From assembly GCA_958295905.1 (NCBI GenBank), contig OY282382.1:6000367-6064366 (forward strand): a stretch of DNA of 64,000 nt. Reading direction: 5' to 3'. The notes under the pieces were generated by a model. It was not told where the DNA came from. It worked only from the letters and a program-made list of their open reading frames with translations, and searched no databases. A program made the position numbers and the translations under genes. Below, one piece after another: positions 1 through 63,589 of this stretch (its first letter is position 1; the number at the start of each line of letters is the position of its first letter). This stretch comes from an uncultured Vicinamibacterales bacterium. GTDB lineage: Bacteria; Acidobacteriota; Vicinamibacteria; Vicinamibacterales; UBA8438.

Positions 1-161
1 GCGCCGCTTCCCGGCCGGCGTGCGCAAGCACGCCTAGATCGACACGCTGCAGTTGGGGCCACCGCTGCGTGCCGCCGGCGGACGCGCCCGGCCGGGCTCG
101 CGCCGAGGACGCCCAACGGCCGGAGCGCCGCGGCGGCCTCCCCGGCGGTGCCTCGACCGTG

Positions 162-334
162 CCCCAGGAGCATCCCACGCTGATTGCGCGTGACGGCTCG
201 CCCCCGATTCGAGGGGTCGCCACCGTCTTGCCGACCGGCCGGCGCCGCGTGAGACCCACGATTCCGCACGTCCGGAACCCAGGACCCGCCACGATGCCGC
301 CTGCCACGGCGGTGGCGGAGCGTGGGATGGTCCT
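162..334 (+). repeat. Dispersed intergenic repeat, family E, copy 1
   Basis: About 170 bp upstream of aceE recur in inverted orientation at 40028-40200 with scattered substitutions and small indels. Shared landmarks are an AGGAGCATCCCACGCTGA block at one end and a GGCGGGTCCTGG-type block (read in the other orientation) near the other. No coding frame is convincingly conserved between the copies. The rest of 1-473 holds nothing else I can recognise. Confidence 0.8.
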
Positions 335-473
335 CGACGGTGCCCCGCGCCCGGCAGAGCGAAGCCGGTGCTTTCCTGTACACTGCTCCAGCCGGCGAGC
401 GGCGCCGGACCGCCGATGGCGCCCCGCCCGCCGCGGCGGGCCGAATCGTTGCGCACGGAGTTCGACGCACGTC

Positions 474-3134
474 ATGACCGAAACCACACGGGATCTTCCG
501 GAGCTCGACCAGGACGAGATACGCGACTGGCTCGACTCGCTCGACGCGGTGATCGACTGCCACGGGCTGACCGCGGCGGGACGGCTGCTGCAGGAGCTCA
601 CCCGCCGCGGCGAGCACGCGGGGGTGCAGCTTCCGTTCACCGCCAACACGCCCTACGTGAACACCATACCGCCCGAGGAGGACCCCGCCTATCCCGGCGA
701 CCGCGACCTCGAGCAGCGGCTGAAGAGCCTCATCCGGTGGAACGCGCTGGCGATGGTGGTGCGGGCCAACCGCGGGGCGGACGGCATCGGCGGGCACATC
801 TCCACCTATGCCTCGGCCGCGACCCTCTACGAGGTCGGGTTCAACCACTTCTTCCGGGCGGCCAGCGAGACGCAGCCGAGCGACCTCGTGTACTACCAGG
901 GCCATGCGGCGCCGGGCGTCTACGCCCGCGCCTACCTCGAGGACCGGATCACCCCGCAGCAGCTCGAGAACTTCCGGCGCGAGCTGGGCGCGGGGCCGGG
1001 CCTGTCGTCGTACCCGCATCCGTGGCTGATGCCCGACTTCTGGGAGTTCCCCACCGTCTCGATGGGGCTCGGCCCGATCATGGGCATCTACCAGGCCCGG
1101 TTCCAGCGGTACCTGGAGGACCGGGGCCTGCTGCCGCCGTCCGACGCCAAGGTGTGGGTGTTCCTGGGCGACGGCGAGACCGACGAGCCGGAGTCGCTGG
1201 GGGCGATCACCCTGGCCGCGCGCGAGCAGCTCGACAACCTGATCTTCGTCGTCAACTGCAACCTGCAGCGGCTCGACGGACCGGTGCGCGGGAACGGACA
1301 GATCATCCAGGAGCTCGAGGCGGCCTTCCGCGGGGCGGGGTGGAACGCCATCAAGGTGATCTGGGGCCGCGACTGGGATCGCCTTCTCGCCGATGATCGG
1401 GACGGGCTGCTGGTCCGCCGCATGAGCGAGACGGTGGACGGGCAGTACCAGAAGTACGCCGTCGAGTCCGGCGCGTACATGCGGGAGCGCTTCTGGGCCG
1501 GGATGCAGGACCGGGTGAGCCACCTGACGGACGGCGAGCTCAAGAAGCTGCGGCTCGGGGGGCACGACCCTGCCAAGGTGCACGCCGCCTTCGCGGCGGC
1601 GTCGGCCCACCGCGGGAGCCCGACGGTCATTCTCGCCCGCACCATCAAGGGCTACGGGCTCGGCGAGAGCGGCGAGGGGCGCAACATCACCCACCAGCAG
1701 AAGAAGCTGAACGAGGACGAGCTCCGCGCGTTCCGGGACCGGTTCGGCATCCCCCTGTCGGACGACGAGATCGCGGGGCTGCCGTTCTATGCGCCCAACC
1801 CCGACACCCCCGAGATGGCCTACCTGCGGACCCGCCGCGAGGCGCTCGGGGGGCCCGTCCCGCAACGCCGGGGCCGGGCCGCGCCGCTGCGCGAGGTGCC
1901 GGCCGAGCCGTTCACCGAGTTGCATGCGGGCACCGGCGACCGCGAGGCCTCGCTGACCATGGGGTTCGCCCGGCTGCTGAGCCGGCTTCTCCGCGACCCC
2001 GTCCTCGGGGAGCTGATCGTGCCGATCGTCCCCGACGAGGCCCGCACCTTCGGGATGGAGGCGCTGTTCCGGCAGGTCGGCATCTACGCGCACGCCGGGC
2101 AGCTCTACGAGCCGGTCGACCACGCCACCCTGCTCTACTACCGCGAGGGCGAGGACGGACAGGTCATCGAGGAGGGCATCACCGAGGCCGGCTCGATGGC
2201 CTCGTTCATCGCGGCGGGAACCGCCTATGCGACCCGCGGGGTGAACACCATTCCGTTCTTCATCTATTACTCGATGTTCGGATTCCAGCGCGTCGGCGAC
2301 CTGATCTGGGCCGCCGCCGATTCCCGCTGCCGAGGGTTCCTGGTGGGCGGCACAGCGGGGCGGACGACCCTGGCCGGCGAGGGGCTCCAGCACCAGGACG
2401 GCCAGAGCCACCTCCTCGCGGGCCCGGTGCCCAACCTCCTGGCCTACGACCCGGCGTTCGCCTACGAGCTGGCGGTCATCATCGAGGACGGCATCCGCCG
2501 CATGTACGTCGACGGTGAGAGCCTGTTCTACTACCTGACGGTCGAGAACGAGTCCTATCCGATGCCCGCGATGCCCGACGGGGCCCGCGAGGGCATTCTG
2601 CGGGGGCTGTACCGGCTGCGGCCGGCCCGCGAACCGAGGACGCATCGGGCGCAACTGCTCGCGAGCGGGGCGATACTGCGCGAGGCCCTCGCGGCGCAGG
2701 CGCTGCTCGAGCGCTACGACGTGGCGGCCGACGTCTGGAGCGTCACGAGCTGGGGGCAGCTCCATCGCGACGGGCACGCCTGCGACCGCTGGAACATGCT
2801 GCACCCCCTGGAGGCGCCGCGCGTGCCCTACCTGACCCGCTGCCTCGGCTCGGCGCCGGGGGTGGTGGTGGCGGCCAGCGACTATGTGAAGGCGCTGCCG
2901 GACACGCTCGGCCGGTGGCTGGACGCCCGGTTCGTGACGCTCGGCACCGACGGGTTCGGGCGCAGCGACACGCGCGGGGCGCTGCGCGACTTCTTCGAGG
3001 TGGATGCCCGGTTCATCACCCTGGCGACGTTGCGGGCGCTGGCCCGCGGCGGTGCGGTGGAACCGGCGGTCGCGGCGCAGGCGATCGCCGATCTCGACAT
3101 CGACCCGGACAAGCCGGACCCGGCGCTGAGCTAG
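474..3134 (+). CDS. aceE: Pyruvate dehydrogenase E1 component (homodimeric type)
   Basis: Thiamine-diphosphate-dependent decarboxylase of the pyruvate dehydrogenase complex: it decarboxylates pyruvate and reductively acetylates the lipoyl group of E2 in the cytoplasm. The 886-residue product is almost the length of the E. coli enzyme and collinear with it. The ThDP motif starts at residue 232 (GDGETDEPE, followed by the NCNLQ segment), and the conserved HPWLMPDFWEFP segment lies about 50 residues before it. I chose the ATG at 474 because the protein then starts like family members (MTETTRDLPELDQDE); the frame is open further upstream but low in complexity and unlike E1. E2 follows after a 430-bp repeat-filled gap. 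The TAG stop is also the first triplet of a REP-like hairpin. No E3 gene is adjacent. Confidence 0.96.
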   Translation: MTETTRDLPELDQDEIRDWLDSLDAVIDCHGLTAAGRLLQELTRRGEHAGVQLPFTANTPYVNTIPPEEDPAYPGDRDLEQRLKSLIRWNALAMVVRANRGADGIGGHISTYASAATLYEVGFNHFFRAASETQPSDLVYYQGHAAPGVYARAYLEDRITPQQLENFRRELGAGPGLSSYPHPWLMPDFWEFPTVSMGLGPIMGIYQARFQRYLEDRGLLPPSDAKVWVFLGDGETDEPESLGAITLAAREQLDNLIFVVNCNLQRLDGPVRGNGQIIQELEAAFRGAGWNAIKVIWGRDWDRLLADDRDGLLVRRMSETVDGQYQKYAVESGAYMRERFWAGMQDRVSHLTDGELKKLRLGGHDPAKVHAAFAAASAHRGSPTVILARTIKGYGLGESGEGRNITHQQKKLNEDELRAFRDRFGIPLSDDEIAGLPFYAPNPDTPEMAYLRTRREALGGPVPQRRGRAAPLREVPAEPFTELHAGTGDREASLTMGFARLLSRLLRDPVLGELIVPIVPDEARTFGMEALFRQVGIYAHAGQLYEPVDHATLLYYREGEDGQVIEEGITEAGSMASFIAAGTAYATRGVNTIPFFIYYSMFGFQRVGDLIWAAADSRCRGFLVGGTAGRTTLAGEGLQHQDGQSHLLAGPVPNLLAYDPAFAYELAVIIEDGIRRMYVDGESLFYYLTVENESYPMPAMPDGAREGILRGLYRLRPAREPRTHRAQLLASGAILREALAAQALLERYDVAADVWSVTSWGQLHRDGHACDRWNMLHPLEAPRVPYLTRCLGSAPGVVVAASDYVKALPDTLGRWLDARFVTLGTDGFGRSDTRGALRDFFEVDARFITLATLRALARGGAVEPAVAAQAIADLDIDPDKPDPALS

Positions 3135-3253
3135 GCGTCTGCGCCGCAGGAAATTATGACTACCCTATGTTGCGCAAGCGTCGGCGGTTTACCACTACAT
3201 ATTTGTAGTCGGATCAGACCTAAAACCGTTCTGGGGCGCAGACTCCCAGTGCA
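3132..3253. repeat. REPIN-like element 1 (two inverted REP ends)
   Basis: The left end (TAGGCGTCTGCGCCGCAG) begins on the aceE stop codon. The right end, read on the other strand, is GGGAGTCTGCGCCCCAG. Between them lie about 85 bp of unusually AT-rich sequence. The whole element recurs in inverted orientation at 43632-43746 with the interior recognisably conserved, so it behaves as a unit. Confidence 0.75.
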
Positions 3254-3381
3254 TCGCCACCACTAGCTAGAGATAGGATCGTCGGGGCATTCACCTCGAA
3301 CCGCAAGAGTCCTATGCAGAAGAAATACGTCGTTCGACTCAAGTTCGTCTGTCCGAAACTTATGACGTGACGGGCCACTAG
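3249..3381 (+). pseudogene. Frameshifted 3' fragment of the small-ORF repeat (copy of 9632-9829)
   Basis: This stretch aligns with the second half of the small ORF at 9632-9829 down to the shared stop codon. The last 60 bases are nearly identical. One base is missing in the run before TATGCAGAAG (AGTCCTATG here, AGTCCCTATG in the intact copy), which breaks the frame. It lies between two REP-like hairpins, and its TAG is the first triplet of the next hairpin. Its base composition is lower in GC than the neighbours. Confidence 0.7.
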
Positions 3382-3500
3382 GAGTCTGCGCCGTGGAGCG
3401 GCGCGGATTCCTGGAGGGTGGGTTGGGCGGCCATCGGAGGCCGCAGCGCGACCTTGCGGTCGCGTTCGGAGTTTCGCCGGCGCGAAACTCCTACGGCGGC
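3379..3500 (+). repeat. REP-like hairpin with conserved tail, upstream of E2
   Basis: The hairpin runs from TAGGAGTCTGCGCCG through a GTGGAGC loop to GGCGCGGATTCC (3379-3412). It is followed by the CTGGAGGGTgGGTTGG tail and a block with CCTTGCGGTCGCG and GGAGTTTCGC that recurs inverted at 16395-16480. It fills most of the space before the E2 gene. Confidence 0.75.
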
Positions 3501-5154: not shown

Positions 5155-5397
5155 GCGGCGAAACCCCGCGCCGCCCCGGGAGCGGCGGGGGCGCGGCGGT
5201 GGACGGAGTGGTGGTTGACCGACCCCGAATCCGGTGGTCGCCGCCGGCGGGCTGAAGAGGGCCCGCGGGCAAAGAACGCCGGTGCCTGACCCGGCGTGAG
5301 GAGGACGCCGGTTGCTGCGAAACAGGTCTCGACGGTTCGCGGCGTCGGGGTGATCGGCGTCATCGATCGATCATGACGGTTGGGCACGGGCAACCGA
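5155..5397 (+). repeat. Dispersed intergenic repeat, family B, copy 1
   Basis: Contains the hallmark GGGCTGAAGAG, GGGCAAAGAACGC and GGTGCCTGAC blocks followed by a GATCATGACGGTT block. Related copies are at 12238-12440 (+), 19143-19260 (+) and 48835-48950 (-). No coding function is visible. Confidence 0.75.
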
Positions 5398-9486: not shown

Positions 9487-9631
9487 GAACCCGGCAAGAC
9501 GCCGCTCCAAGCGGCCGGCGCGCGGGCTTGCGTGGACCGGGGCCGCCCGGCGGACGAACCACTGCGAGGCTCCGCCTCAGACCGACGAGGCATGTGGGTC
9601 TGCACAGTCGCCGGTGCCTGAGGTCGCTCCC

Positions 9632-9829
9632 ATGGCAGCGAACAAAAAACGATCAAAACTTGACTCAACTGTAAAGATCACGCCCGTTCAAGGACTCCAG
9701 CGCATCGACACAACTAAAAATAGTGTCTCCGGAGCACTCACCTCGAACCCCAAGAGTCCCTATGCAGAAGAAATACGTCGTTCGACCCAAGTCCGTCTAT
9801 CCGAAACTTATGACGTGACGGGCCACTAG
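9632..9829 (+). CDS. 65-aa small ORF carried by a dispersed repeat (family F)
   Basis: Unrecognised. The product is short and basic at its start (MAANKKRSKLDSTVK) and polar at its end (SETYDVTGH), with no signal peptide or membrane segment. It is clearly lower in GC than its surroundings. Its 3' half recurs, frameshifted, at 3249-3381. Its 5' half and leader recur in inverted orientation, twice and degenerate, at 63304-63540. The leader block CGCCTCAGACCGACGAG at about 9567 is also shared with that locus. Its stop codon overlaps tail-to-tail with the ADOP gene's stop in CTAG (9826-9829). It could be a mobile small gene or a repeat that happens to stay open; a GTG at 9614 is an alternative start. 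Confidence 0.45.
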   Translation: MAANKKRSKLDSTVKITPVQGLQRIDTTKNSVSGALTSNPKSPYAEEIRRSTQVRLSETYDVTGH

Positions 9830-12204
9830 TCCGCCCGCAAGACGGCCATCGGGTCGAGCCGGGCGGCCCGGCGGGCCGGAATCGCCGCGGCGGCCAGCGC
9901 GGCGAGCACGACGGTGGCGGCGGCCGCCGCGAACGTGGCCGGGTCGTGGGGACCGACGCCGTAGAGCAGGGAGGCGAGGCCGCGGCCGGCGGCGACCGCC
10001 GCCGGCAGCCCCGCCGCCAGCCCGGCCCCGGTGACGGCGAGGGCGCTCCCCACGACGAGCCTGACGAGCCGGCCGGGCGACGCCCCGACGGCGGCGCGGA
10101 CGGCCAGCTCGCGGCGCCGCTCGGCGACGGCCCTGGCGAGGGCCCCGAAGAGCCCGACCATCGCCACGGCCAGCGCGAGGGCGGCGAAGCCGGCCGCCGG
10201 GGCCACGCGCAGCCGCCGGTCGGCGATGGAGCCGGCGACGTGGTCCTCCAGGGTCCGTACCTCGGGGACCGGCAGCGACGGGTTCAGCGTCCGGATGAGG
10301 TCGCGAATCGCCGGGGCCAGCCCCATCGGATCGCCGGTGGTCCGCACCACGAGGTGCGACACACCGGTGGGCGCCCGCGGCCACGGGACGTATATCGAGC
10401 CCGCGCGCGGGGCGGCGAGCCCCTGGTGCTTCATGTCGTCGACGACGGCGACGATCGGCGCGCGACGCGCGAGGCCGAAGGCGGCGACCTCGTTGTAGTG
10501 CATCCGACGGCCGACCGAGTCCTCGTTCGGGTAGACGAAACGCGCGGCGGTCTCGCTCAGCATCACGGGGCCCACCTCCGCGAGGTTGTCGGCGGCGTCG
10601 AACCGGCGCCCGTCCCGCAGCCGCGCGCCGAGCGCCGCGAAATACCCGCGGGTGACCGCGCCGAACGACAGGAGGATCTCGCGCCTCGACGAGTCGCCCC
10701 TGTCGTCCTCATACACGAACTGCACCGTTACGGGCGTATCATCGGGGGGCAGCAGGCTGCCGACCCCGGCCGCCTGCACGCCCGGCAAGCCGCGCACCCG
10801 CTCCAGCAACGTCTCCACGAAGGCGTTGTGGTCGTCGCCTCCGATGAGAAGCCGATCGGCGAGCATCAGCCGCGCCGTCAGCGCCTGCCGCGGCTCGAAG
10901 CCGGCGTCTTCGTCGAGCAGCCGGTCGACGGTCCGGACCAGCAGTCCGGCGCCGGTCAGCAGCACGATGGACAGCGCGACCTGGCCGGCCACCAGCCCCG
11001 CCCGCAGGCGCCGGGTGGTCCGCGAGCCGGTCGCCGAGGCGCCGCCGCGCAGGGCGGCGCCGTCGCCCCGCACCGCGCCGGCCGCCGAGGCGGCGCCGCA
11101 GGCCGCGCCGGCCGCCAGGGTCAGGACGAGACCGGCCAGCGCGACCGGCAGATCGAGGGCGACCGCGTCGACCCGCGGCATCGCGCCGGCGGCCAGGGCC
11201 GCGAACAACCGCAGACCGGCCCAGGCCGCCGCGAGGCCCAGAATCAGTCCCCCCGCGGCCAACGCCAGCCCCTCGATCAGCGCGGCCCGGACCAGCCGGG
11301 CCAGACCCGAGCCGAGGGCGATGCGGATCGCGAACTCCCGGCTCCGGACCACCGAGCGTCCGATGAGGAGCGTCGCCGCGTTCGCGCACGCGACCACCAG
11401 CACGAGCAGCGCCGCGGCCATCAACACCAGTAGAACGGGCCGGACCTCGCCGAGCAACGTGTCTTCGACCGGTCTGACCGCCGCGCCCCACCGGCCGCCG
11501 CCGCGGACGTCGATGACCTCGCGGGCGACCCGGGCGGCGTCGTCGCGAACCTGGGCCAAGGAGGCGCCGTCCCGCATGCGCCCCACGGTGCCGCGCCCCC
11601 CAAAGGCCGGCGTGTCCGCCGCCCAGGCGTCGACGCCGGCCGACGGAAACGCGAACCCGGCGGGCATGACCGCGGCCACGTCGTAGCGGCCCTCCCCGAT
11701 GGTCACCGCCTGGCCGACGACGGATCGGCCCGTCTCGTCCTCGACGGCGCGGGCCAGCCCCGCGCTGACCACGGCCCGGCCGTCGCCGCGCACGAGGCGC
11801 GGCACGACGCCCTGCACGGCCGGCACGCCGAGCACCTCGAAGAACTCCCCGCTGACGGTGGCCACCTCCCTGACGCGGGTCGCCCCCGCGCCGCGCACCA
11901 CGCGTTCCCGCGTCTGGTAGCCGGCCACCCGGACCGTCCTGAGACGGCGGTTCCACTCGTCGATCCGGTCGATCCGCACACTGGACTCTGAACCGTTGTT
12001 CAGATACACCCGGGCGACCGTGACCAGCCGGTCCGCGGCCGGGTACGGCAGCGGGTGCCACAGAACGCCGTAGGCGACGGCCAGCACCGCGGCGTTCAGG
12101 CCCAGACCCAGGGCGAGAATCCCCACCGCCAGGGCCGTCACCCCCGGCTGACGGACCAACGAGCGCACCGTGCACCGCACATCGTGCAGAATCGATTCAA
12201 ACAT
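9826..12204 (-). CDS. ADOP-type ABC transporter permease (MacB/FtsX family)
   Basis: A 792-residue inner-membrane protein of the acidobacterial duplicated orphan permease type. The N-terminus (MFESILHDVRCTVRSLVRQPGVTALAV) and the C-terminal ARLDPMAVLRAD are typical of the group. The order is a short soluble start, membrane segment, a MacB-like periplasmic domain, three-helix FtsX block (about 260-400), a second periplasmic domain and a second FtsX block (about 670-790). No ATPase gene is adjacent, as usual for orphan members. Substrate and function are unknown; lipoprotein or peptide efflux is possible by analogy. The start is ATG 12204; a longer open frame upstream lies in repeat sequence. 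The stop overlaps that of the small ORF. Confidence 0.87.
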   Translation of the reverse strand: MFESILHDVRCTVRSLVRQPGVTALAVGILALGLGLNAAVLAVAYGVLWHPLPYPAADRLVTVARVYLNNGSESSVRIDRIDEWNRRLRTVRVAGYQTRERVVRGAGATRVREVATVSGEFFEVLGVPAVQGVVPRLVRGDGRAVVSAGLARAVEDETGRSVVGQAVTIGEGRYDVAAVMPAGFAFPSAGVDAWAADTPAFGGRGTVGRMRDGASLAQVRDDAARVAREVIDVRGGGRWGAAVRPVEDTLLGEVRPVLLVLMAAALLVLVVACANAATLLIGRSVVRSREFAIRIALGSGLARLVRAALIEGLALAAGGLILGLAAAWAGLRLFAALAAGAMPRVDAVALDLPVALAGLVLTLAAGAACGAASAAGAVRGDGAALRGGASATGSRTTRRLRAGLVAGQVALSIVLLTGAGLLVRTVDRLLDEDAGFEPRQALTARLMLADRLLIGGDDHNAFVETLLERVRGLPGVQAAGVGSLLPPDDTPVTVQFVYEDDRGDSSRREILLSFGAVTRGYFAALGARLRDGRRFDAADNLAEVGPVMLSETAARFVYPNEDSVGRRMHYNEVAAFGLARRAPIVAVVDDMKHQGLAAPRAGSIYVPWPRAPTGVSHLVVRTTGDPMGLAPAIRDLIRTLNPSLPVPEVRTLEDHVAGSIADRRLRVAPAAGFAALALAVAMVGLFGALARAVAERRRELAVRAAVGASPGRLVRLVVGSALAVTGAGLAAGLPAAVAAGRGLASLLYGVGPHDPATFAAAAATVVLAALAAAAIPARRAARLDPMAVLRAD

Positions 12205-12237
12205 CGGAAACCCGCTTGGTCCCTCAGCGATTCCTTG

Positions 12238-12440
12238 ACAGCCCGTGGTGAAAACCCCGCGTCGCACCGAGAGCGGCGAGGGCGCCAGCGGGCTGAAGAG
12301 CGCCCGCGGGCAAAGAACGCCGGTGCCTGACCAGGCGCGGGGAGGCACCGGTTGCTGTAAAACAGGTCCCGACGTTTCGTGGCGTCGGGTGATGGGCGTC
12401 CCCGATCATGACGGTTCGGGCATGGTAACCGACGAACGAT
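12238..12440 (+). repeat. Dispersed intergenic repeat, family B, copy 2
   Basis: Closely matches 5155-5400, sharing the GGGCTGAAGAGCGCCCGCGG, AAAGAACGCCGGTGCCTGAC and GATCATGACGGTT blocks. It lies upstream of the ADOP gene. Confidence 0.8.
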
Positions 12441-19145: not shown

Positions 19146-19260
19146 GGCGGCCCGTGGTGAACCCCTCGTCGCACCGGGAGCGGCGCGGGCGCCGGCGGGC
19201 TGAAGATCGCCGGCGGGGCAAAGAACGCCCGTGCCTGACCAGACGTGAGGGAGGGCGGCC
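19143..19260 (+). repeat. Dispersed intergenic repeat, family B, copy 3
   Basis: Shares GTCGCACCGGGAGCGGCG, GGGCTGAAGA and CAAAGAACGCCCGTGCCTGA with the copies at 5155, 12238 and 48835. It is shorter at its 3' end than copies 1 and 2. I see nothing else in 19261-19420. Confidence 0.75.
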
Positions 19261-32361: not shown

Positions 32362-32367
32362 TATAAT
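32362..32367 (+). promoter_or_regulatory. Possible -10 box for the M16 peptidase pair
   Basis: A perfect TATAAT lies 64 bp upstream of the ATG at 32431 in very GC-rich surroundings. A weak TTTCCA at 32337-32342 could be the -35 box with a 19-bp spacer. Confidence 0.4.
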
Positions 32368-32430
32368 TGGGGGTCCGCCCGCGCACCGGGCTCCGCGCCG
32401 GGCGGGTTCGCCGAACAGGAGACAGTCGTC

Positions 32431-33776
<1,346 letters not shown>

Positions 33777-33780
<4 letters not shown>

Positions 33781-35444
33781 CGGCCCCAACGCCGCAACGA
33801 CGCCGCCGGGCGGTCCCCGCCGCCGACCCGGGTGCCGGGTCCGCGCGGCGTTCTCGATGCGCGCCCGCGTCTCGACGCCACCGGGCCGCCGCCGGCCCGG
33901 AAGCCCGCGGCAAGACCGCGCGCTCCCGCCGCGCACGGCTGGCCCCGCTCGCCGCGGCGGGCCTCGTGCTCGCGGCAGCCGCGGCCGGCCCCGTCGGTTC
34001 GGCCGCCGGACAGCCGGCGCCCCCCCTCGTCACGCTCCCCGCGCCCGGCTCGCCGCTGGTGACCCTGCGCATCGGGTTCCGCACCGGATCGATCGACGAT
34101 CCGGCGGGCAAGAACGGCCTCAACGCGCTGACGGCCTTGACGATGGGGCGCGGCGGCACCGAGGCGACGACCTACGAGGCGCTCGCCGCGACCCTGTATC
34201 CCTGGTCGGCGACGATCCGGGCGCAGTTCGACAAGGAGATGACGGTGATCGTCGGCGAGACGCACCGCGATCATCTCGATCCGTTCTTCGACATCGTGCG
34301 GGACCTCGTGACGGCGCCGCGGTTCGATCCGTCCGACTTCGAACGGAACCGCGGGTTCCTGACCAACACCGTCGTGTCGACGCTGCGCGGCAGCGACGAC
34401 GAGGCGCTGGGCAAGGAGGCGCTCAACGCGCTGCTCTACGCGGGGCATCCCTACGCCGCCCCCGCCGCCGGCACCGAGCGCGGCCTGGCGGCGCTGACCC
34501 TCGACGACGTGCGCGCCTTCCACCGCGGGCATTACACGCGCGCGCGGGTCCTCGCGGGCATCTCCGGCGGCTACCCCGCGGGCTTCGCCGAGCGGGTCGA
34601 GCGCGAGCTGCTCGACCGCCTGCCGGCGGGGGGCGCCGAGCCCGCCCCGCTGCCGCCCCCGCGGGCCCTCGACGGCATCGAGCTGCTGGTGGTGGACAAG
34701 GACGCCATCGCCACTGCGATCTCCATCGGCCATCCGATCGACGTCACCCGCGCCGACGACGACTTCTACGCCCTGATGGTCGCCAACTCCTACTTCGGCG
34801 AGCACCGCACGTTCAACGGCCTCCTGATGAACAAGATGCGCGGGCAGCGGGGCCTCAACTACGGCGACTACTCGTACATCGAGCACTTCGCGCAGGACGG
34901 CGGGTCGCGCCTGCCGGTCCCCAACATCCCCCGGCGCCAGCAGTTCTTCAGCATCTGGATCCGGCCGGTGCCGCACCACAACGCCCACTTCGCGCTGCGG
35001 CAGGCTGTCCGCGAGCTGCGCGTCCTCGTGGAAGACGGCCTGACCGCGGCCGACTTCGAGGCCACCCGCGAGTTCCTGATCAACTACTCGAAGCTCTACG
35101 TGCAGACGACCAGCCGCCGTCTCGGATACCACATGGACTCCGCCGCGTACGGCACCGGGTACTTCATCGACGAGATCCAGCGCCGGCTGCCCGAGCTGAC
35201 CGTCGACGACGTCAACGCCGCGATCCGGCGCCACCTGCAGGCGGACGACCTCGCCGTCGCCGTCGTCACCCGCGACGCCGAGGCGTTCGGGGATCGGCTG
35301 CTGGCCGGAGAACCGTCGCCCCCGACCTACAACGCGGCGGTGACCGAGGCGATCCGCGCCGAGGACGCGCTGATCGAGTCGTTCGAGCTCGACATCGACC
35401 CGAATCGGGTGCGGGTGGTCCCGGTGGAGGAGATGTTCCGCTAG
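33777..35444 (+). CDS. M16-family peptidase-like protein, non-catalytic subunit
   Basis: A 555-residue partner of the preceding peptidase. After an Arg-rich start and a hydrophobic export segment (about 55-75), the M16 fold is recognisable (SPLVTLRIGFRTGSIDDPAGKNG). Where an active member has HxxEH it reads LTALTMGRGGTE, so zinc binding is lost. The later MRGQRGLNYGDYSYIEHF and FSIWIRPVPHHNAHFALR segments are typical of the substrate-binding subunit. Its TAG stop is the first triplet of a REP-like hairpin. Confidence 0.9.
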
Positions 35445-35475
35445 GAGTCTGCGCCGCAGAACGGCGCGGCGGCGC
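35442..35475 (+). repeat. REP-like hairpin on the M16 stop codon
   Basis: CTAGGAGTCTGCGCCGCAG, loop, CGGCGCGGC. The left arm starts on the stop codon. The right arm is degenerate after GGCGCGG. The tail seen at other copies is missing. Confidence 0.8.
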
Positions 35476-40027: not shown

Positions 40028-40200
40028 GACCATCCCACGCTCCACCACCGCCGTGCGCAGACAGCATTGTGGCGGGTCCTGGGGCTCCGGACGAGCGGAA
40101 TCGCGGGTCTCACGCGGCGCCGGCCGGTCGGCAAGACGGTGGCGACCCCTCGAATCGGAGGCGGGCCGCCACGCGCAGTCAGCGTGGGATGCTCCTGGGC
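40028..40200 (-). repeat. Dispersed intergenic repeat, family E, copy 2
   Basis: Inverted match to 162-334. It fills the first part of the 470-bp gap before fbiC. Nothing recognisable is in 40201-40455. Confidence 0.8.
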
Positions 40201-40455: not shown

Positions 40456-43011
40456 ATGACCATGGACACCACCCGTTACGCCCGACCGTCGCGGGACGCC
40501 GCCCTGGATCTCGCCCGCGACGCGGATCTGACGACGCTGATGGCCCGGGCCTCGGCGCTCCGCGACGCCGGGTTCGGCCGGGCCGTCAGCTACTCGCGGA
40601 AGGTGTTCATTCCGCTTACGAAGCTGTGCCGGGACGTGTGCCACTACTGCACGTTCGCCCAGCCCCCGAGACCCGGCGAGCGGGCCTACATGACGCTGGA
40701 CGAGGTCGTCGACGTGGCGCAACGCGGCGCCCGCGCCGGCTGCCGGGAGGCGCTGTTCACGCTGGGCGACAAGCCCGAGCTCCGCTACCCGCAGGCCCGC
40801 GACGAGCTCGACGCGCTGGGCTACCCCACGACCATCGCGTATCTCACGGCGGCAGCCCGCGCCGTCCTCGACGCCGCCGGCCTGCTGCCCCACGCCAACC
40901 CCGGCGTGGTCACGCGCGACGAGCTGATCGCCCTGCGCGAAGTGTGCCCGTCGCAGGGCCTCATGCTGGAGAGCGTCTCCCGCCGCCTGCTCGACCGGGG
41001 CGGGGTCCACCACGGGTCGCCCGACAAGAACCCGGACGCGCGGCTGGAGACGATGCGGGCGGCGGGCGAGTTGGCGATTCCCTGGACGTCCGGCATCCTC
41101 ATCGGCATCGGGGAGACCCGCGGGGAGCGCATCGAGTCGCTGCTCGCGCTGCGCGACCTCGACGACGAGCACGGGCACATCCAGGAGATCATCGTCCAGA
41201 ACTTCCGGGCCAAGCCGCACACGCGCATGGCCGGGGCCCCCGAGCCCACGCTTGAGGACCTGCAGTGGACGATCGCCTGCGCGCGGCTGATCTTCGGTCC
41301 CGACATGGCCATCCAGGCGCCGCCCAACCTGACGCCGGACAGCTTCGGCGCCCTGATCCGGGCCGGCATCAACGACTGGGGCGGGGTGTCGCCGGTGACC
41401 CCCGACCACGTCAACCCCGAGGCGCCCTGGCCGCACCTCGATCAGCTCGCGCGCGAGACGGAGCGCGAGGGCAAGATGCTGACCCCGCGGCTCACCGTCT
41501 ATCCCGCCTACGTGCGCCGCCTCGACGCCTGGGTGGCGGAGCCGCTGCGGCCGGCCGTCCTGCGCGCCTCCGACGCCGAGGGCTTCGCGCGCGAGAGCGC
41601 GTGGTCGCCCGGCGACCGGGACGCGGTGCTGCCGGCCGCGCTCCTCGACCGCCTCGCGCGCCCGGCCGCGCCGGTCCCGGCCTCGACGACGCGCGCCCTG
41701 TGCGAGAAGGCGTCGCGCGGCGACCGGCTCGACGAGCCGGAGATCGCCGCGCTCTTCTCCGCGCGGGGCGACGATTTGGTGGCGGTGGTGCGCGCGGCCG
41801 ACGCCCTGCGCCGCGAGGTCAACGGCGACGAGGTGACCTACGTCGTCAACCGCAACATCAACTACACCAACGTCTGCTACTTCCGCTGCCAGTTCTGCGC
41901 GTTCTCGAAGGGCAAGCTCAGCGAGAACCTGCGCGGCGCGCCCTACGACCTCGATCTCGACGAGATCGCCCGCCGCAGCGCCGAAGCCTGGGAGCGCGGC
42001 GCCACCGAGGTGTGTATGCAGGGCGGCATTCACCCCGAGTACACCGGCGCCACCTATCTCGACATCTGCCGGACCGTCAAGGCGGCGGTCCCCTCGATGC
42101 ACGTGCACGCGTTCTCGCCGCTCGAGGTGTGGCAGGGCGCGGCCACCCTCGGCGTTTCGCTCGAGACGTTCCTCGAGCGGCTCCGGGCGGCGGGGCTCGG
42201 GACGCTGCCGGGCACCGCGGCCGAGGTGCTCGACGACGAGGTCCGGCGAGACCTGTGCCCCGACAAGCTGTCGGCGGGCCAGTGGCTCGAGGTGATGGAG
42301 ACCGCGCACCGGGTCGGGTTCCGAACCACCGCGACCATCATGTACGGCCACATCGACCGCCCGCGGCACTGGGCCCGGCACTTCGCGCGCATCCGCGCGC
42401 TGCAGGCGCGCACCGGCGGGTTCACCGAGTTCGTGCCCCTGCCCTTCGTGCACATGGAGGCGCCGATCTACCTGAAAGGGCGGGCACGGCGCGGTCCGAC
42501 GTTCCGCGAGTCGCTGCTCATGCACGCGGTCGCCCGCCTCGCGCTGCACCCGCTGGTGCCCAACATCCAGGCCTCGTGGGTCAAGATGGGGCCGCGCGGC
42601 GTGCGCGCCTGCCTCGAGGCCGGGGTGAACGACCTCGGCGGCACCCTGATGAACGAGAGCATCACGCGGGCGGCCGGCGCCGGGTTCGGCCAGGAGCTGC
42701 CGCCGGAGGGCATGGAGTCGGTGATCGCGGCGGCGGGCCGCACGCCGAAACAGCGCTCGACGACCTACGGCGAGCCGCCGGCGGGGCAGGTGGCCCGGTC
42801 GTTCCACGCCGCGGATCTGCGTCCGGTGGCGCCGGCGCCGAGCCCCGCCGGGGCGCGGGACGGGGCGCGGGCGCCGCTGGCCCGGCCCGGACTCGACGCC
42901 GGCGGGAACGACGATTCGCCGGGAGAGTCGCGGCCGACGCTGCTCCGGCCCGGGCTCGACGCCGGCGGGAACGACGATTCGCCGGGAGAAGTGACACGAA
43001 CACTGCGATGA
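40456..43011 (+). CDS. fbiC: FO synthase (CofG/CofH fusion), coenzyme F420 biosynthesis
   Basis: Makes the deazaflavin FO from tyrosine and a flavin-pathway pyrimidine, using two radical-SAM modules in one 851-residue chain. The N-terminal CofG half has C58, C62 and C65 (CRDVCHYC); the CofH half has C474, C478 and C481 (CYFRCQFC). SAM-site and substrate segments (SGILIGIGET, PPNLTPDSFG, CMQGGIHPEYTG, YGHIDRPRHW) are conserved. The last ~40 residues are an added tail containing RPGLDAGGNDDSPGE twice. ATG 40456 (or 40462) fits. Other F420 genes (fbiA, fbiB, cofC) are not in the window. Confidence 0.94.
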   Translation: MTMDTTRYARPSRDAALDLARDADLTTLMARASALRDAGFGRAVSYSRKVFIPLTKLCRDVCHYCTFAQPPRPGERAYMTLDEVVDVAQRGARAGCREALFTLGDKPELRYPQARDELDALGYPTTIAYLTAAARAVLDAAGLLPHANPGVVTRDELIALREVCPSQGLMLESVSRRLLDRGGVHHGSPDKNPDARLETMRAAGELAIPWTSGILIGIGETRGERIESLLALRDLDDEHGHIQEIIVQNFRAKPHTRMAGAPEPTLEDLQWTIACARLIFGPDMAIQAPPNLTPDSFGALIRAGINDWGGVSPVTPDHVNPEAPWPHLDQLARETEREGKMLTPRLTVYPAYVRRLDAWVAEPLRPAVLRASDAEGFARESAWSPGDRDAVLPAALLDRLARPAAPVPASTTRALCEKASRGDRLDEPEIAALFSARGDDLVAVVRAADALRREVNGDEVTYVVNRNINYTNVCYFRCQFCAFSKGKLSENLRGAPYDLDLDEIARRSAEAWERGATEVCMQGGIHPEYTGATYLDICRTVKAAVPSMHVHAFSPLEVWQGAATLGVSLETFLERLRAAGLGTLPGTAAEVLDDEVRRDLCPDKLSAGQWLEVMETAHRVGFRTTATIMYGHIDRPRHWARHFARIRALQARTGGFTEFVPLPFVHMEAPIYLKGRARRGPTFRESLLMHAVARLALHPLVPNIQASWVKMGPRGVRACLEAGVNDLGGTLMNESITRAAGAGFGQELPPEGMESVIAAAGRTPKQRSTTYGEPPAGQVARSFHAADLRPVAPAPSPAGARDGARAPLARPGLDAGGNDDSPGESRPTLLRPGLDAGGNDDSPGEVTRTLR
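42881..43006 (+). repeat. 63-bp direct repeat extending the FbiC C-terminus
   Basis: About 45 bp (CCGGCCCGG.CTCGACGCCGG onward to GATTCGCCGGGAGA) occur twice, 63 bp apart and in frame. Each encodes RPGLDAGGNDDSPGE. They lie beyond the conserved end of the enzyme. Confidence 0.85.
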
Positions 43012-43085
43012 CACCGGATCCGCCCCCGCGTCGAGCCAAGCCGCGGCCGGCGCAACGGAAGCGGGACCGGCAAGGAGACGAATTG

Positions 43086-43634
43086 ATGACTGACGACCGC
43101 ACAATCGGCGGGCAACTGGTGAAAGCGTTGCGGCGCCCGGCGATCGCCGCGCCGGCGGCCCTCGTGGTCCTGCTGGTGATCGGATTCTACGGGTGGTCGG
43201 CCACCTGTCCCTGCGATCGCGCGCCCGGCGCCGTTCTCTTCGGGGCCGAGCAAGAGTTTCCGGTCGACGACTGGACCTTCGCCAACCAGGTGACGCTGTG
43301 CCAGATCCAGGTCAACGCCGGCGTGCTGCCCCACGCCATCAACCTGAACTGTTTCGCGAACGGTGACGGCGACCTGTACTTGAGCTGCTCGAACTGCGAC
43401 GGCAAGCGCTGGTCCGGCTTCGCGATCCGGGACGGCCGGGCTCGGCTGCGGCTCGACCGCACCGTCTACCCGGTCCACGTCACCCGGATCGTGGACCCGG
43501 CCGAGCTCGACATGGCGTGGGTCGCCAGGCTCGACAAGCTCCATTCCCTGGAGGAGCCGGCCAACCCACCCGCGCCGCTCGGGAGCCCGCGGCCCGACGG
43601 CTGGTGGACGTTCCGCGTCCTGTCGCGCAGCTAG
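43086..43634 (+). CDS. Small membrane-anchored protein next to fbiC
   Basis: A 182-residue protein I do not recognise with certainty. An N-terminal anchor spans about 20-38 (AAPAALVVLLVIGFYGW), followed by CPC. A beta-rich domain follows with VTLCQIQVNAGVLPHAINLNC, a CSNCDGKRW pair and VYPVHVTRIVDP. The outline recalls small split-barrel flavin- or F420-type proteins, and the position 75 bp behind fbiC fits, but both are inference. AGGAG precedes ATG 43086. The TAG stop (CTAG) is the first triplet of REPIN-like element 2. Confidence 0.65.
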   Translation: MTDDRTIGGQLVKALRRPAIAAPAALVVLLVIGFYGWSATCPCDRAPGAVLFGAEQEFPVDDWTFANQVTLCQIQVNAGVLPHAINLNCFANGDGDLYLSCSNCDGKRWSGFAIRDGRARLRLDRTVYPVHVTRIVDPAELDMAWVARLDKLHSLEEPANPPAPLGSPRPDGWWTFRVLSRS

Positions 43635-43746
43635 TGGTCTGCGCCGTAGAACCGTTTTGGGTCCGATCTGGCACATATGTAGCGGTCAGTCGCTGGAGCT
43701 TACACAACATATGGTGGTCAGGATTTCCTGCGGCGCAGACTCCTAG
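43632..43746. repeat. REPIN-like element 2 (two inverted REP ends)
   Basis: Both outer ends read CTAG followed by the REP arm (TAGTGGTCTGCGCCGTAG on the left; CTAGGAGTCTGCGCCGCAG on the minus strand at the right). The AT-richer interior is the inverted relative of 3150-3230 (GGTTTTGGGTC, CATATGTAG, CAACATATGG). Confidence 0.85.
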
Positions 43747-47002: not shown

Positions 47003-47206
47003 CCGGCAGGCTACGGGGCGCACGTCAGATTGTGAGACACCCTCTGCGTAGCCGTCCCACGCGCGGGCGCGTGCCCGGCAGGCTACGGGGCGCACGTCAG
47101 ATTGTGAGACGACTGCCCCTGGAACCTGCCGGTAGTTGCTCCCTGCGCCTGCGAGTTCGTCACGGCGCACGTCAGATTGTGAGACGACTGCCCCTGGAAC
47201 CTGCCA
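47003..47206 (+). repeat. Perfect 36-bp repeat pair, 36-bp spacer, plus a third partial copy
   Basis: Identical 36-bp copies at 47003-47038 and 47075-47110 (start CCGGCAGGCTACGG, end CAGATTGTGAGAC) enclose a 36-bp spacer. A third copy keeps only the last 20 bp of the repeat (47166-47185) and is followed by GACTGCCCCTGGAACCTGCC, also found after the second copy. A weaker relative is at about 46710-46745. Confidence 0.9.
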
Positions 47207-48752: not shown

Positions 48753-48839
48753 GGGCCGACCCGCGCGGGTTGAAGCATCCGATGTGCGGGACGCTGAACG
48801 CGGTACGGATGGGCCGGCCCGCGCCCCGCTGAAGCATCC
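48753..48839 (+). repeat. Short direct repeat behind the sugar dehydrogenase
   Basis: GGGCCGACCCGCGCGGGTTGAAGCATCC-like sequence occurs at 48753 and 48811 (58 bp apart). The first begins three bases after the stop codon. Confidence 0.7.
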
Positions 48840-48950
48840 TCACGCCTTGTCAGGCACGGGCGTTCTTTGCCCACGAGCGCTCTTGAGCCGCCGGCACCCT
48901 CTCCGCGCTCGGGGCGACGCGGGGTTTCACCACGGGCGGCCGGGAACGGC
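48835..48950 (-). repeat. Dispersed intergenic repeat, family B, copy 4
   Basis: Inverted relative of the copies at 5155, 12238 and 19143 (minus strand: GTGGTGAAACCCCGCGTCGC, GGGCAAAGAACGCCCGTGCC). Confidence 0.75.
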
Positions 48951-50493: not shown

Positions 50494-51798
50494 ATGAAAC
50501 TCAGGCATGCCTGTCTCGTCGCCGTAGTCACCGCCGCCCTCACCGGGTGCGGCGGGGCCGGCGGCGACTCCGCGCCGGGCGCCGCCGGCGATCCCATCAA
50601 GGTCGGCGTCCTGCACTCGCTCTCGGGCACCATGGCCATCAGCGAAACGACGTTGAAAGACACCATCCTGATGATGGTCGAGGCGCAGAACGCCCAGGGC
50701 GGCCTGCTCGGGCGGCCGGTCGAGGCGGTGGTCGTCGATCCCGCGTCGGACTGGCCGCTGTTCGCCGAGCGGGCGCGCGAGCTGCTGGAATCCGAGCAGG
50801 TCGACGTCGTGTTCGGCTGCTGGACCTCGGTGTCGCGGAAATCCGTGCTGCCGGTGTTCGAGGAGAACAACGGCCTGCTCTTCTACCCCGTCCAGTACGA
50901 AGGCGAGGAGTCGTCGAAGAACGTCATCTACACCGGCGCCGCCCCGAACCAGCAGGCGATCCCCGCCGTCGACTATCTGATGAACGAGGTCGGCATCGAG
51001 CGCTGGGTGCTGGAAGGCACCGACTACGTCTATCCCCGCACCACCAACCGCATTCTCGAGGCGTACCTGAAGCAGCAGGGCGTGGCGGACGACGACATCG
51101 ACATCAACTACACCCCCTTCGGGCACTCCGACTGGCAGACCCGCGTGTCCGCCATCCGCCGCTTCGGGTCGGCCGGCAAGCCGACCGCGGTGGTGTCCAC
51201 CATCAACGGCGACGCCAACGTCCCGTTCTATCTGGAGCTCGCGAACCAGGAGGTCTCGGCCGACGACATTCCCGTCGTGGCGTTCTCGGTGGGCGAAGAA
51301 GAGCTGTCGGGCCTCGACACCACCCCGCTCGTCGGGCACCTCGCCGCCTGGAACTACTTCCAGAGCGTGGACTCGCCGGCCAATGCGGAGTTCATCGCGC
51401 GATGGACGGAATTCGTCGATAATGCGGACCGGACCAGCAACGACCCCATGGAGGCCCACTACATCGGGTTCAACCTCTGGGCCCAGGCGGTGGAGAAGGC
51501 CGGCACCACGGACGTCGACGCGGTGCTGGCGGCGCTGCCGGGCACGGAGACGCCCAACCTGACCGGCGGCATCGCGCGGGTTCTGCCCAACCACCACATC
51601 ACCAAGCCGGTGTACATCGGCGAGGTGCAGGCGAACGGCCAGTTCGACGTGGTCTGGCAGACCGACGACACCGTGCCCGGCGACGCCTGGTCCGACTATC
51701 TGCCGGTGAGCCAGATCACGGAAGCGGACTGGGTGGAGCTGAACTGCGGAAACTTCAACACCGAGACCCAGGTGTGCTCCGGACAGAACTACGAGTAG
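50494..51798 (+). CDS. urtA: Urea ABC transporter substrate-binding lipoprotein
   Basis: Periplasmic urea receptor of the UrtABCDE importer. Of 434 residues, the lipobox is LTGC with C19, so it is probably a lipoprotein. The mature part is a Leu/Ile/Val-binding-like fold with UrtA signatures (IKVGVLHSLSGTMAISE, DPASDWPLFAERARELL, VFGCWTSVSRKSVLPVFEENNGLLFYPVQYEG). An AAAGGAG ribosome-binding site precedes ATG 50494. The last 38 codons are duplicated downstream between two REP-like hairpins. Its TAG stop starts the first hairpin. Confidence 0.95.
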   Translation: MKLRHACLVAVVTAALTGCGGAGGDSAPGAAGDPIKVGVLHSLSGTMAISETTLKDTILMMVEAQNAQGGLLGRPVEAVVVDPASDWPLFAERARELLESEQVDVVFGCWTSVSRKSVLPVFEENNGLLFYPVQYEGEESSKNVIYTGAAPNQQAIPAVDYLMNEVGIERWVLEGTDYVYPRTTNRILEAYLKQQGVADDDIDINYTPFGHSDWQTRVSAIRRFGSAGKPTAVVSTINGDANVPFYLELANQEVSADDIPVVAFSVGEEELSGLDTTPLVGHLAAWNYFQSVDSPANAEFIARWTEFVDNADRTSNDPMEAHYIGFNLWAQAVEKAGTTDVDAVLAALPGTETPNLTGGIARVLPNHHITKPVYIGEVQANGQFDVVWQTDDTVPGDAWSDYLPVSQITEADWVELNCGNFNTETQVCSGQNYE

Positions 51799-51827
51799 GC
51801 GTCTGCGCCGTGGAACGGCGCGGAATC
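51796..51827 (+). repeat. REP-like hairpin on the urtA stop codon
   Basis: TAGGCGTCTGCGCCG, GTGGAAC loop, GGCGCGGAATC. It is identical in its core to the copy at 51942, 146 bp further on. Confidence 0.85.
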
Positions 51828-51944
51828 GACGCTTGGTCCCACTATCTGCCGGTCAGCCAGATCACGGAAGCGGACTGGGTGGACCTGAATTGCGGAAACT
51901 TCAACACCGAGACCCAGGCGTGCGCCGGACAGAACTACGAGTAG
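51826..51944 (+). pseudogene. Duplicated 3' end of urtA
   Basis: A second copy of the last 38 codons of urtA (DAWSHYLPVSQITEADWVDL and onward to GQNYE-stop). Four residues are changed, three of them conservatively (D to H, E to D, V to A, S to A), and a few changes are silent. It has no start of its own. It is bounded on both sides by the same REP-like hairpin, giving a 146-bp tandem duplication. Confidence 0.9.
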
Positions 51945-51973
51945 GCGTCTGCGCCGTGGAACGGCGCGGAATC
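51942..51973 (+). repeat. REP-like hairpin upstream of urtB
   Basis: TAGGCGTCTGCGCCGTGGAA then CGGCGCGGAATCC, followed by a GGGGGGTTGGGCGG remnant of the usual tail. It starts on the stop codon of the duplicated urtA end and contains a possible GTG start for urtB (51956). Confidence 0.85.
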
Positions 51974-58673: not shown

Positions 58674-59636
58674 TTGGAAATCCTGGTCAATGACCTGTCG
58701 ATCCACGAGCAGTTCCACGACATGGCGACCTTTCGCGATGCGCTTGCGCGGCTGATGGCGATGCGTCCCGCCGCCCGGCGCTTTGGACGTGAGGTGGGTT
58801 GCCATCGCGCGCTCCTGGCGGCCAGCCCGATGCCGGGCGTGTCGATGCGGCAGGCGATTGGGCGTCTCCCCGTCGAAAGCGAGCGGCGCGCGGCGATGGG
58901 CTGGCTGACGCGCTTCGGACCGTTCTGGGACGATCTCCGCCGGCACGGCACCGCGGACTGGCTGGAATGCCGAGACGAGATCGTCACGGACAGCGCCGTC
59001 GGGGAAGCCGCGTTTCGAACGGTGCATCGTGCGGACTGCGGGCTGGTCAGCGTCACGCCGTCCGATTGGGACTACTCCCCCGTCGACGTGACTTGGCGTC
59101 GAGAGGCCGAGGATGCGGATGACCGCAGTACAGCACTCCAGAACTGGCGCAGCGTCCCGGCCCTGGAAGATGGGCTGCGGGACATGGCGCCGCCGATCCG
59201 ATCCTGGGACGACTTGCGAGAGGCTTCGGCAATCCGGTTCGAGAGCCTGACCTGCGCCGGAGACTGCTTCGATCCGCTCTCCGGGGTCCCGTTCGCCAGG
59301 AGCGTAGCGGACCGATTCCTCGTGCTGCTCGGTATCTTGGACCGAATCGCGCGCGCGTTCGACGCGACCGGGGCGCGCACGATCGAGGGACAACGGATCT
59401 ACCAGGACTACTTTACCGGCGACAACGCACTGTTCTCGGACTCGTCGGACGACGAAAAGCGCCGTTTCCAAGAGGCACTGACGTTCCCTCATCCGGACGA
59501 GCCCGGGAACTCTCTGTTCTGCACGTGGCACGGCAAGGTGCGGCGCCTGACGCTCCGCCTCCACTTCTCCTGGCCCGTCGAATCGGGCAAACCGGTCTAC
59601 GTCGTGTACGCCGGCCCGAAGCTCACGAGGCGATGA
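58674..59636 (+). CDS. Third, uncharacterised protein of the cassette
   Basis: A 320-residue protein with no domain I can name. It starts MEILVNDLSIHEQFHDMATF (TTG 58674, with GGAG at the right distance; TTG 58668 overlaps the ATPase stop). The following RLMAMRPAARRFGREVGCHRALL stretch and a later DCFDPLSGVPFARSVADRFLVLL look conserved in kind with proteins I have seen next to DUF262/DUF3696 pairs, from memory. A C-terminal SLFCTWHGKVRRLTLRLHFSWPV could be a nucleic-acid-binding beta sheet. Its stop codon lies in the first unit of a 98-bp tandem duplication. Confidence 0.8.
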   Translation: MEILVNDLSIHEQFHDMATFRDALARLMAMRPAARRFGREVGCHRALLAASPMPGVSMRQAIGRLPVESERRAAMGWLTRFGPFWDDLRRHGTADWLECRDEIVTDSAVGEAAFRTVHRADCGLVSVTPSDWDYSPVDVTWRREAEDADDRSTALQNWRSVPALEDGLRDMAPPIRSWDDLREASAIRFESLTCAGDCFDPLSGVPFARSVADRFLVLLGILDRIARAFDATGARTIEGQRIYQDYFTGDNALFSDSSDDEKRRFQEALTFPHPDEPGNSLFCTWHGKVRRLTLRLHFSWPVESGKPVYVVYAGPKLTRR

Positions 59637-59821
59637 AGCGATGGCGGCGAGCGCGAACGAGCCCCGCATCGTCCACGAGATCGGCGATGACGTCGTCCGG
59701 CTCGACCCACCGCCGCCGGCGCCCGAGGCGATGAAGCGATGGCGGCGAGCGCGAACGAGCCCCGCATCGTCCACGAGATCGGCGATGACGTCGTCCGGCT
59801 CGACCCACCGCCGCCGGCGCC
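59626..59821 (+). repeat. 98-bp tandem duplication at the start of ureD
   Basis: Two identical-looking units, 59626-59723 and 59724-59821. Each contains the last codons and stop of the cassette's third gene (CGAGGCGATGA) followed by the first codons of ureD (MAASANEPRIVHEIGDD). Because 98 is not a multiple of three, translation from the first ATG (59641) leaves the ureD frame. Confidence 0.93.
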
Positions 59822-63306: not shown

Positions 63307-63589
63307 ACTCCTTGAGCGGCCGGGGGTCTTTGCCGTCGAGTCAAGTTCAGGTCTGATCGTTTCGCCGCTGCCACGTCCCCGACCGCAATCGGGCGCGCGG
63401 CGTATCGCGCTCGACCTGCATGTCTCGTCGGTCTGAGGCGAAATCTCGTTAGACTCCTGGAGCGCCCGGGATCTCTTGCCGTCGAGTCAAGTTCAGGTTC
63501 TGATCGTTTCGCCGTCGCCACGTCCCCGACCGCCATGGGGGCCGGCCCCCCGCGGGCCGACATTTTGAGGCTCGCCACCGGGTTCCACC
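63304..63589 (-). repeat. 146-bp tandem repeat, degenerate relatives of the small-ORF repeat
   Basis: Two units start TAGACTCC..GAGCG at 63304 and 63450. Read on the minus strand each contains GCGAAACGATCAGA, CTTGACTCGACGGCAA and .CTC.AGGAGTCTA. These match the 5' half of the small ORF at 9632 (AAACGATCAAAA, CTTGACTCAACTG, AAGGACTCCAG), with frames disrupted. The CGCCTCAGACCGACGAG leader block is present at about 63420. The first unit begins on the ureC stop codon. No other gene lies between ureC and ureF. Confidence 0.75.

Follow-up and report, generated by a model that had tools for sequence, protein, structure and literature searches.

A spurious 65-aa reading frame across two CTAG-bounded miniature transposons, one derived from IS630 and one from a separate family with a candidate transposase

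The 65-aa open reading frame (ORF) at 9632-9829 of the window (the whole stretch of 64,000 nucleotides analysed here) is not a gene but an accidental frame, which runs across the junction of two miniature transposons. We consider it very probable (about 0.9) that the locus consists of two non-autonomous mobile elements of different origin, designated A and B, which lie next to each other at CTAG sites, and that B is an internal-deletion derivative of IS630. Element A belongs to a separate transposon family, different from the IS630 of B, and is its non-autonomous form. The features of this locus, together with other copies of A and B and with copies of a third CTAG-bounded family, C, are located in the window as follows.

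9564 to 9700, plus strand: element A, 137 bp, from the hairpin left end GCGAGGCTCCGCCTCAGACCGACGAG... to ...AAACTTGACTCAACTGTAAAGATC...CAAGGACTC.
9632 to 9829, plus strand: the 65-aa ORF, a chance frame that opens in the right-end region of A, crosses B and stops at the target-site TAG.
9697 to 9829, plus strand: element B, 133 bp, CCAGCGCATCGACAC...GACGTGACGGGCCACTAG, with imperfect terminal inverted repeats (TIRs); internal-deletion derivative of IS630.
9762 to 9818, plus strand: transposase relic in B, with the start ATGCAGAAGAAATACGTCGTTCGA (MQKKYVVR) fused to the 3' end (PKSVYPKLMT and stop).
9826 to 9829, no strand: CTAG at the outer end of B, the stop of both the 65-aa ORF and, as TAG, an 840-aa ORF on the opposite, minus strand (9826-12348), which by inspection we take to be ABC-permease-like.
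3131 to 3249, plus strand: element C, TIR GG(A/C)GTCTGCGCCG; CTAG 3131-3134 is the TAG stop of ORF 69-3134.
3246 to 3381, plus strand: second copy of B, joined on the left to C via CCAG and on the right to a partial C via CTAG.
3378 to 3439, plus strand: C-type end or partial copy of C, directly after B.
35441 to 35464, plus strand: C-type end at a CTAG that is the TAG stop of ORF 32367-35444.
43631 to 43746, minus strand: copy of C; CTAG 43631-43634 is the TAG stop of ORF 41265-43634.
63303 to 63452, minus strand: diverged copy of A (73%); CTAG 63303-63306 is the TAG stop of ORF 61591-63306, presumably urease-alpha-like, judging by inspection.
63449 to 63540, minus strand: another A unit, partial and in head-to-tail order with the preceding one, which it meets at TTAG; end approximate.

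A preliminary description of this DNA had reported the 65-aa ORF, its low GC content and its partial recurrence at two other places, and these observations were borne out. The GC content is 58% in A and 52% in B, versus 71% for the window; a version of the 3' half of the ORF, with a difference that shifts the frame, lies at 3246-3381, and the 5' half with its leader recurs inverted at 63303-63540, in two head-to-tail units. The interpretation of these places as decayed copies of an intact frame was, however, mistaken. The search of the whole genome that the description had called for, carried out at the DNA level with 9570-9835 of the window as the query, yielded at least 41 matches, nearly all with E < 1e-37 and far beyond chance. 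Among the 40 of 168 candidates that were scored, most matches stop at query position ~128-131; with the exception of the query itself and one match at 87-260, they span either positions 1-131 or ~124-266, from which it follows that the ORF extends over two repeat families. The break is the border of these families, each with copies genome-wide, and the "5' half" and the "3' half" are therefore not parts of one element. The earlier suggestion of something mobile that lacks a transposase holds insofar as both pieces are non-autonomous miniature transposons, but they do not constitute one gene family.

Element B starts with CTAGTGCATCGCCACG and finishes with CGTGACGGACCACTAG, an end pattern that has 152 matches in the genome (with at most one mismatch) versus 17 for the reversed control. 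The DDE_3 transposase is encoded at three places in the source genome. At locus L061, a CTAG-bounded element of 1216 bp (877-2092) contains two overlapping reading frames, which we infer to be joined by a -1 frameshift; its transposase is named IS630 by NCBIfam (NF033545, 126.8 bits) and also matches PF13358 (73.5 bits). Both halves of B match the two ends of the L061 element (E=1e-10), so that the relic inside B can be read as the transposase start fused to the last transposase codons. B thus descends, through an internal deletion, from IS630 elements of which full-length copies persist in the source genome. Close full-length IS630 transposases elsewhere (up to 91% identity) were found in Vicinamibacterales MAGs, and among 40 related genomes full-length B was found in the source genome only. 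Presumably, B was mobilized in trans by the full-length IS630 transposase, which would insert it into CTAG with duplication of TA. IS630 prefers 5'-CTAG-3' as its target (Tenzen and Ohtsubo 1991, as cited in PMC2170065). Copies of B carry CTAG or its one-base variants at both ends, and such a TA duplication is indistinguishable from a CTAG borne by the element, the target being always CTAG. The comparison of B flanks with a sister genome revealed a CTAG beside the shared right flank, and the left flanks did not align. Like other bacterial MITEs derived from IS630, B has IS630 ends around a deletion, a CTAG target and flanking TA; on the other hand, the elements described here are very dense, form end-to-end composites with members of two further CTAG-bounded families, and also sit at stop codons of genes. 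MITEPsy1 (PMC3189936) is likewise a MITE of ~100 bp that inserts at CTAG or YTAA, but, as far as a comparison by description rather than by sequence can tell, it differs in its IS5-like ends and the reported 4-bp duplication.

Approximately 35 copies of A were listed from the source genome and two sisters, most of them with CTAG or a variant on both sides and with unrelated flanks; the copy numbers of A, B and C are lower bounds from the searches. One copy of A (L370) sits after a CTAG between what we take to be the end of atpB and an atpE-like start, and at this site the sister genomes G001 and G002 possess a single CTAG and no element; this is the only full empty site from this search. In relatives (L264, L265) ~1.85 kb separates the two ends of A, and one long plausible ORF lies between them. 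Such full-length relatives of A, which measure 1.7-1.9 kb and encode one protein of ~530 aa, were found in genomes of the same family and on plasmids of Burkholderiales, Rhodococcus and Mycobacterium. At the thresholds used, homologs of the 533-aa protein were found in 10 of 60 relatives, in 24 of 396 genomes of the same phylum, and on 24 plasmids from Rhodococcus, Mycobacterium, Mycolicibacterium, Caballeronia, Paraburkholderia and Bradyrhizobium. The plasmid copies from Caballeronia and Paraburkholderia (93%) align exactly from CTAACGAGG to GGAATCTAG and have unrelated flanks, full-length A is multicopy in G018, and G023 contains two identical A units in tandem. That full-length A is a discrete mobile unit with unrelated flanks is well supported. 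An intact A protein was not found in the source genome, where the searches detected fragments and remnants only. Among six homologous regions whose annotation was read, the protein is called hypothetical in three and an ArsR regulator in one, and two records carry no annotation. The parent of A thus spans genomes related to Acidobacteriota as well as plasmids of Burkholderiales and Actinomycetota, with no transposase annotation in the records read, and a description of the family was not found in the full-text literature searched, a scope that excludes bioRxiv, most subscription papers and ISfinder. Two peculiar arrangements of A-type sequences were also observed. Upstream of the A-type ORF at L277 and L297 a second, inverted copy of the left-end sequence occurs at a distance of ~70-100 bp, resembling a palindromic mini-element beside the full element, and in L325, a plasmid of Mycobacterium riyadhense, two diverged members of ~530 aa (41% and 25% identity to the query) are found directly in tandem.

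CTAG is scarce in the window, with 17 occurrences versus ~170 expected from base composition and 54 from a Markov estimate. CTAG or its one-base variants (e.g. CCAG, CTGG) form most of the element ends, and nearly all those of full copies of A and B; copies of A, B and C are scattered genome-wide and joined end to end via one shared CTAG. In particular, A at 9564-9700 has the left flank CACTG (a decayed CTAG) and a right junction, CCAG, that it has in common with B; the region 3131-3439 resolves as C-B-C; and identical A units at L267 share one CTAG. Among 98 flanks of B, 22 adjacency counts (A, B or C within 6 bp) were obtained versus ~0.07 expected, the latter value assuming ~350 elements genome-wide, a number itself estimated from counts of ends and copies. 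Ends of C with the TIR given above number 407 in the source genome versus 2 for the reversed control, and exceed 100 in each of several relatives; an autonomous partner of C was not found among end pairs 517-2566 bp apart, in which the longest ORF alone was inspected and none was transposase-like. The junctions are also associated with the ends of genes: 24 of 99 intact CTAG junctions supply the TAG of a long ORF (open for at least 100 codons, GC3 > 0.85), whereas the other two frames give 0 and 2, and within the window this applies to the junctions at 3131, 35441, 43631, 63303 and, on the minus strand, 9826.

We propose that insertion occurs at C-TA-G and yields CTA[G...C]TAG, by which CTAG would be restored at both ends of the element and a TAG stop codon would stay intact when the target CTAG was one. 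As CTAG is restored at both ends, each insertion would make new targets, and later elements may land beside earlier ones; repeated insertion at the regenerated sites would then yield end-to-end composites. To preserve TAG stops and at the same time to create CTAG sites would be a simple route to the amplification of mini-transposons in a genome where CTAG is scarce. Separately, we observed that the CTAG junctions in the source genome decay mostly to CCAG or CTGG. Such decay, together with the scarcity of CTAG, would fit Vsr-like repair.

It could be argued that the 65-aa frame is a real peptide gene after all, with the other places as its decayed copies, since one copy has an open frame from ATG to TAG. 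We regard this as extremely improbable. Repeat borders lie inside the ORF, which ends on a CTAG insertion site. Its 3' part is made of the fused start and end of the transposase, read in a frame different from that of the remnant, and its 5' part comes mostly from A's right-end region, a segment that in full-length A elements lies 3' of the stop codon. In 50 distinct copies of B, codon positions 1/2/3 have substitution rates of 0.080/0.078/0.062 in the frame of the ORF and 0.053/0.085/0.054 in the frame of the transposase; there is no sign of coding constraint, because an excess of third-position substitutions is absent, and roughly equal rates are what the preliminary description itself had named as speaking against a peptide. 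The frame of the ORF is open in 18 of 40 full copies of B, and frame-shifting indels occur inside the transposase remnant in 15 of 50. Another possibility, namely that A and B form one composite element that moves as a unit, draws on the placement of B directly after A both at 9564-9829 and at L002/L356, and we consider it very unlikely. At most sites either A or B is found by itself, bordered by CTAG on both sides and set in unrelated flanks, and A is present in sister species where the B consensus matched in part only, mostly at the right end. Moreover, what lies on the left at L356 is the remnant of a full-length A element, and no pairs with identical A-B junctions at unrelated sites were seen. 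The sister contig that corresponds to the A-B locus of the window ceases to match immediately past the upstream gene and then terminates. Two separate elements meeting at a CTAG would also account for a class of spurious small ORFs, in which CTAG ends provide TAG stops and joined mini-elements provide open frames.

The ends of full-length A are unlike each other: when they were compared by eye and by folding, no terminal inverted repeats were apparent. The left end reads CTA(G/A)C followed by a hairpin, and the right end reads ...TCTAG. A left-end hairpin of 5-7 bp was found in 13 of 34 homolog entries (which are not independent, L274/L275/L284 and L279/L285 being close or identical) versus 4.4% in Markov shuffles. 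The stems differ (GAGGC, CAGGT, GCGGGC, GCGGCC, CCGGC), and in Rhodococcus GGGGC-TGC-GCCCC is discernible by eye after CTAC. Within 250 bp 3' of the A-type ORF, CTAG was found 26 times versus 3.2 expected, chiefly in members with >40% identity. The end of a Helitron consists of a hairpin followed by CTRR-3', and the complementary strand of A similarly ends with hairpin-G-CTAG-3'. We also entertained a strict head-to-tail order of A units as a sign of rolling-circle movement, and dropped this argument because L266/L284 exhibit an inverted A-A neighbour.

The ~530-aa protein is probably the transposase of A, as its sequence conservation and its company of A-type ends suggest. Apart from weak matches of the C-terminal wHTH in some members, it has no match in Pfam, NCBIfam, PHROG or PADLOC and no convincing match to a PDB sequence. 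In particular, the L265 protein matches nothing in Pfam at E up to 1, 31 members gave no match to Rep_trans (PF02486) at an E cutoff of 0.1, and no HUH transposase family of Pfam or NCBIfam was matched. Across 19-57% identity the alignment retains two invariant and a dozen near-invariant residues, and the nearly invariant motifs comprise D23, D152, K325xY327xK329 and R335xE337. The active site of Rep_trans carries YxK and RxE motifs (PMC5714925; PMC4797284). KxYxK and LRxE of the A protein are reminiscent of these motifs III and IV, but the leucine spacing differs from the (W/L)xRxE of Rep_trans; D23 and D152, considered as candidates for the aspartates of motifs N' and I, lie outside an RxD context, and neither motif I (RxD) nor motif II is discernible. 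AlphaFold (AF2) models of two members that are 23% identical (pLDDT 82.9 and 82.0, pTM 0.75-0.77; their input alignments share rows) both display two beta-alpha-beta4-alpha repeats and a C-terminal wHTH. A Foldseek search against viral proteins listed several TBP-fold proteins, including the phycodnavirus TBP A0A2N9QVX7, which has been reported for RepSNJ2 too (PMC13107129); the top match by E-value was a phage portal protein (probability 0.25), and TM-scores were low throughout. Against the PDB the two models gave nothing at E 0.001 or better and weak wHTH-type matches only; for RepSNJ2, too, the PDB matches are described as marginal and to wHTH only (PMC13107129). A sequence link to gpII of filamentous phages (inoviruses) was also considered and rejected, the hhalign profile comparison being negative. 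Taken together, the models and the KxYxK/RxE motifs suggest that the A protein may be a TBP-fold tyrosine endonuclease of the Rep_trans type, to which we assign slightly better than an even chance.

Two other explanations of A have to be weighed against this one. A might be mobilized by a DDE transposase such as that of IS630, with the ~530-aa protein as a passenger gene; the CTAG target common to A, B and C and the presence of IS630 copies are in line with such a scheme. However, obvious terminal inverted repeats are missing from A, the ends of which do not resemble those of IS630, the ~530-aa ORF is the sole long plausible one in the units translated, A-type ends accompany its homologs in related genomes, in Burkholderiales and partly in Rhodococcus, and invariant and near-invariant residues are retained across 19-57% identity, all of which makes this scheme unlikely. 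There is a more substantial chance, though one well short of even, that the protein is a transposase of another class, e.g. a DDE/RNase-H variant, and that the TBP-like fold is an artefact of modelling. The fold search in the PDB, without a significant match, and the negative comparison with gpII are in its favour; against it, two starting sequences with 23% identity led to the same topology at pLDDT 82-83 and pTM 0.75-0.77, and the viral fold search lists TBP-fold proteins several times.

A has points in common with two groups of known systems. IS91/ISCR and Helitrons, which are rolling-circle elements with HUH enzymes (PMC5714925), resemble A in their asymmetric ends and in a hairpin beside one end; they differ in that the A protein matches no HUH family in the libraries searched and in that CTAG is found at both borders of A. 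With Rep_trans (PF02486; RepDE, PMC4797284) and Rep-Arvir (PMC13107129) the A protein would have in common conserved YxK and RxE, the predicted TBP-like two-repeat domain and a hairpin DNA site beside the gene, and with Rep-Arvir also the MarR-like wHTH after the TBP-like domain. Unlike them, it yielded no sequence match in the searches made, lacks evident motifs I and II, and resides in a stand-alone transposon. Movement of A via a rolling-circle or single-stranded intermediate is put forward as tentative. The same holds for the reading of A as an undescribed class of bacterial transposons, and to both we give somewhat less than even odds: its enzyme, neither HUH nor DDE, would be a TBP-fold tyrosine endonuclease of the Rep_trans/Rep-Arvir type, acting on a CTAG-adjacent hairpin end with rolling-circle or single-strand movement, and A would be a counterpart of Helitrons in behaviour rather than in enzyme. 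A TBP-fold, Rep_trans-like nature of the protein, if true, would join rolling-circle initiators to transposition via that fold. To our knowledge, the TBP-like Rep_trans fold does not drive any known transposon.

Several other features of the window were recorded. Rfam yielded no match within A, B or C in the window, nor in L061, L264, L265, L322 and L324; a match to RF02514 (5_ureB_sRNA, 75.8 bits) at 61747-62035 on the minus strand, antisense within ORF 61591-63306, may only reflect conserved coding sequence. The repeat CGCGGGCAAAGAACGCC(G/C)GTGCCTGACC, which is not tied to CTAG, A, B or C, occurs in both orientations at 5242-5304, 12283-12345, 19191-19253 and 48834-48889. Three copies of GGCGCACGTCAGATTGTGAGAC, 72 and 75 bp apart, are found at 47017-47205, and 163-280 and 40082-40199 form an inverted repeat pair of 118 bp, 94% complementary, with 40 kb between. 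Finally, there are recent tandem duplications at 51681-51972 (146 bp, 95%) and 59621-59816 (98 bp, 98%).
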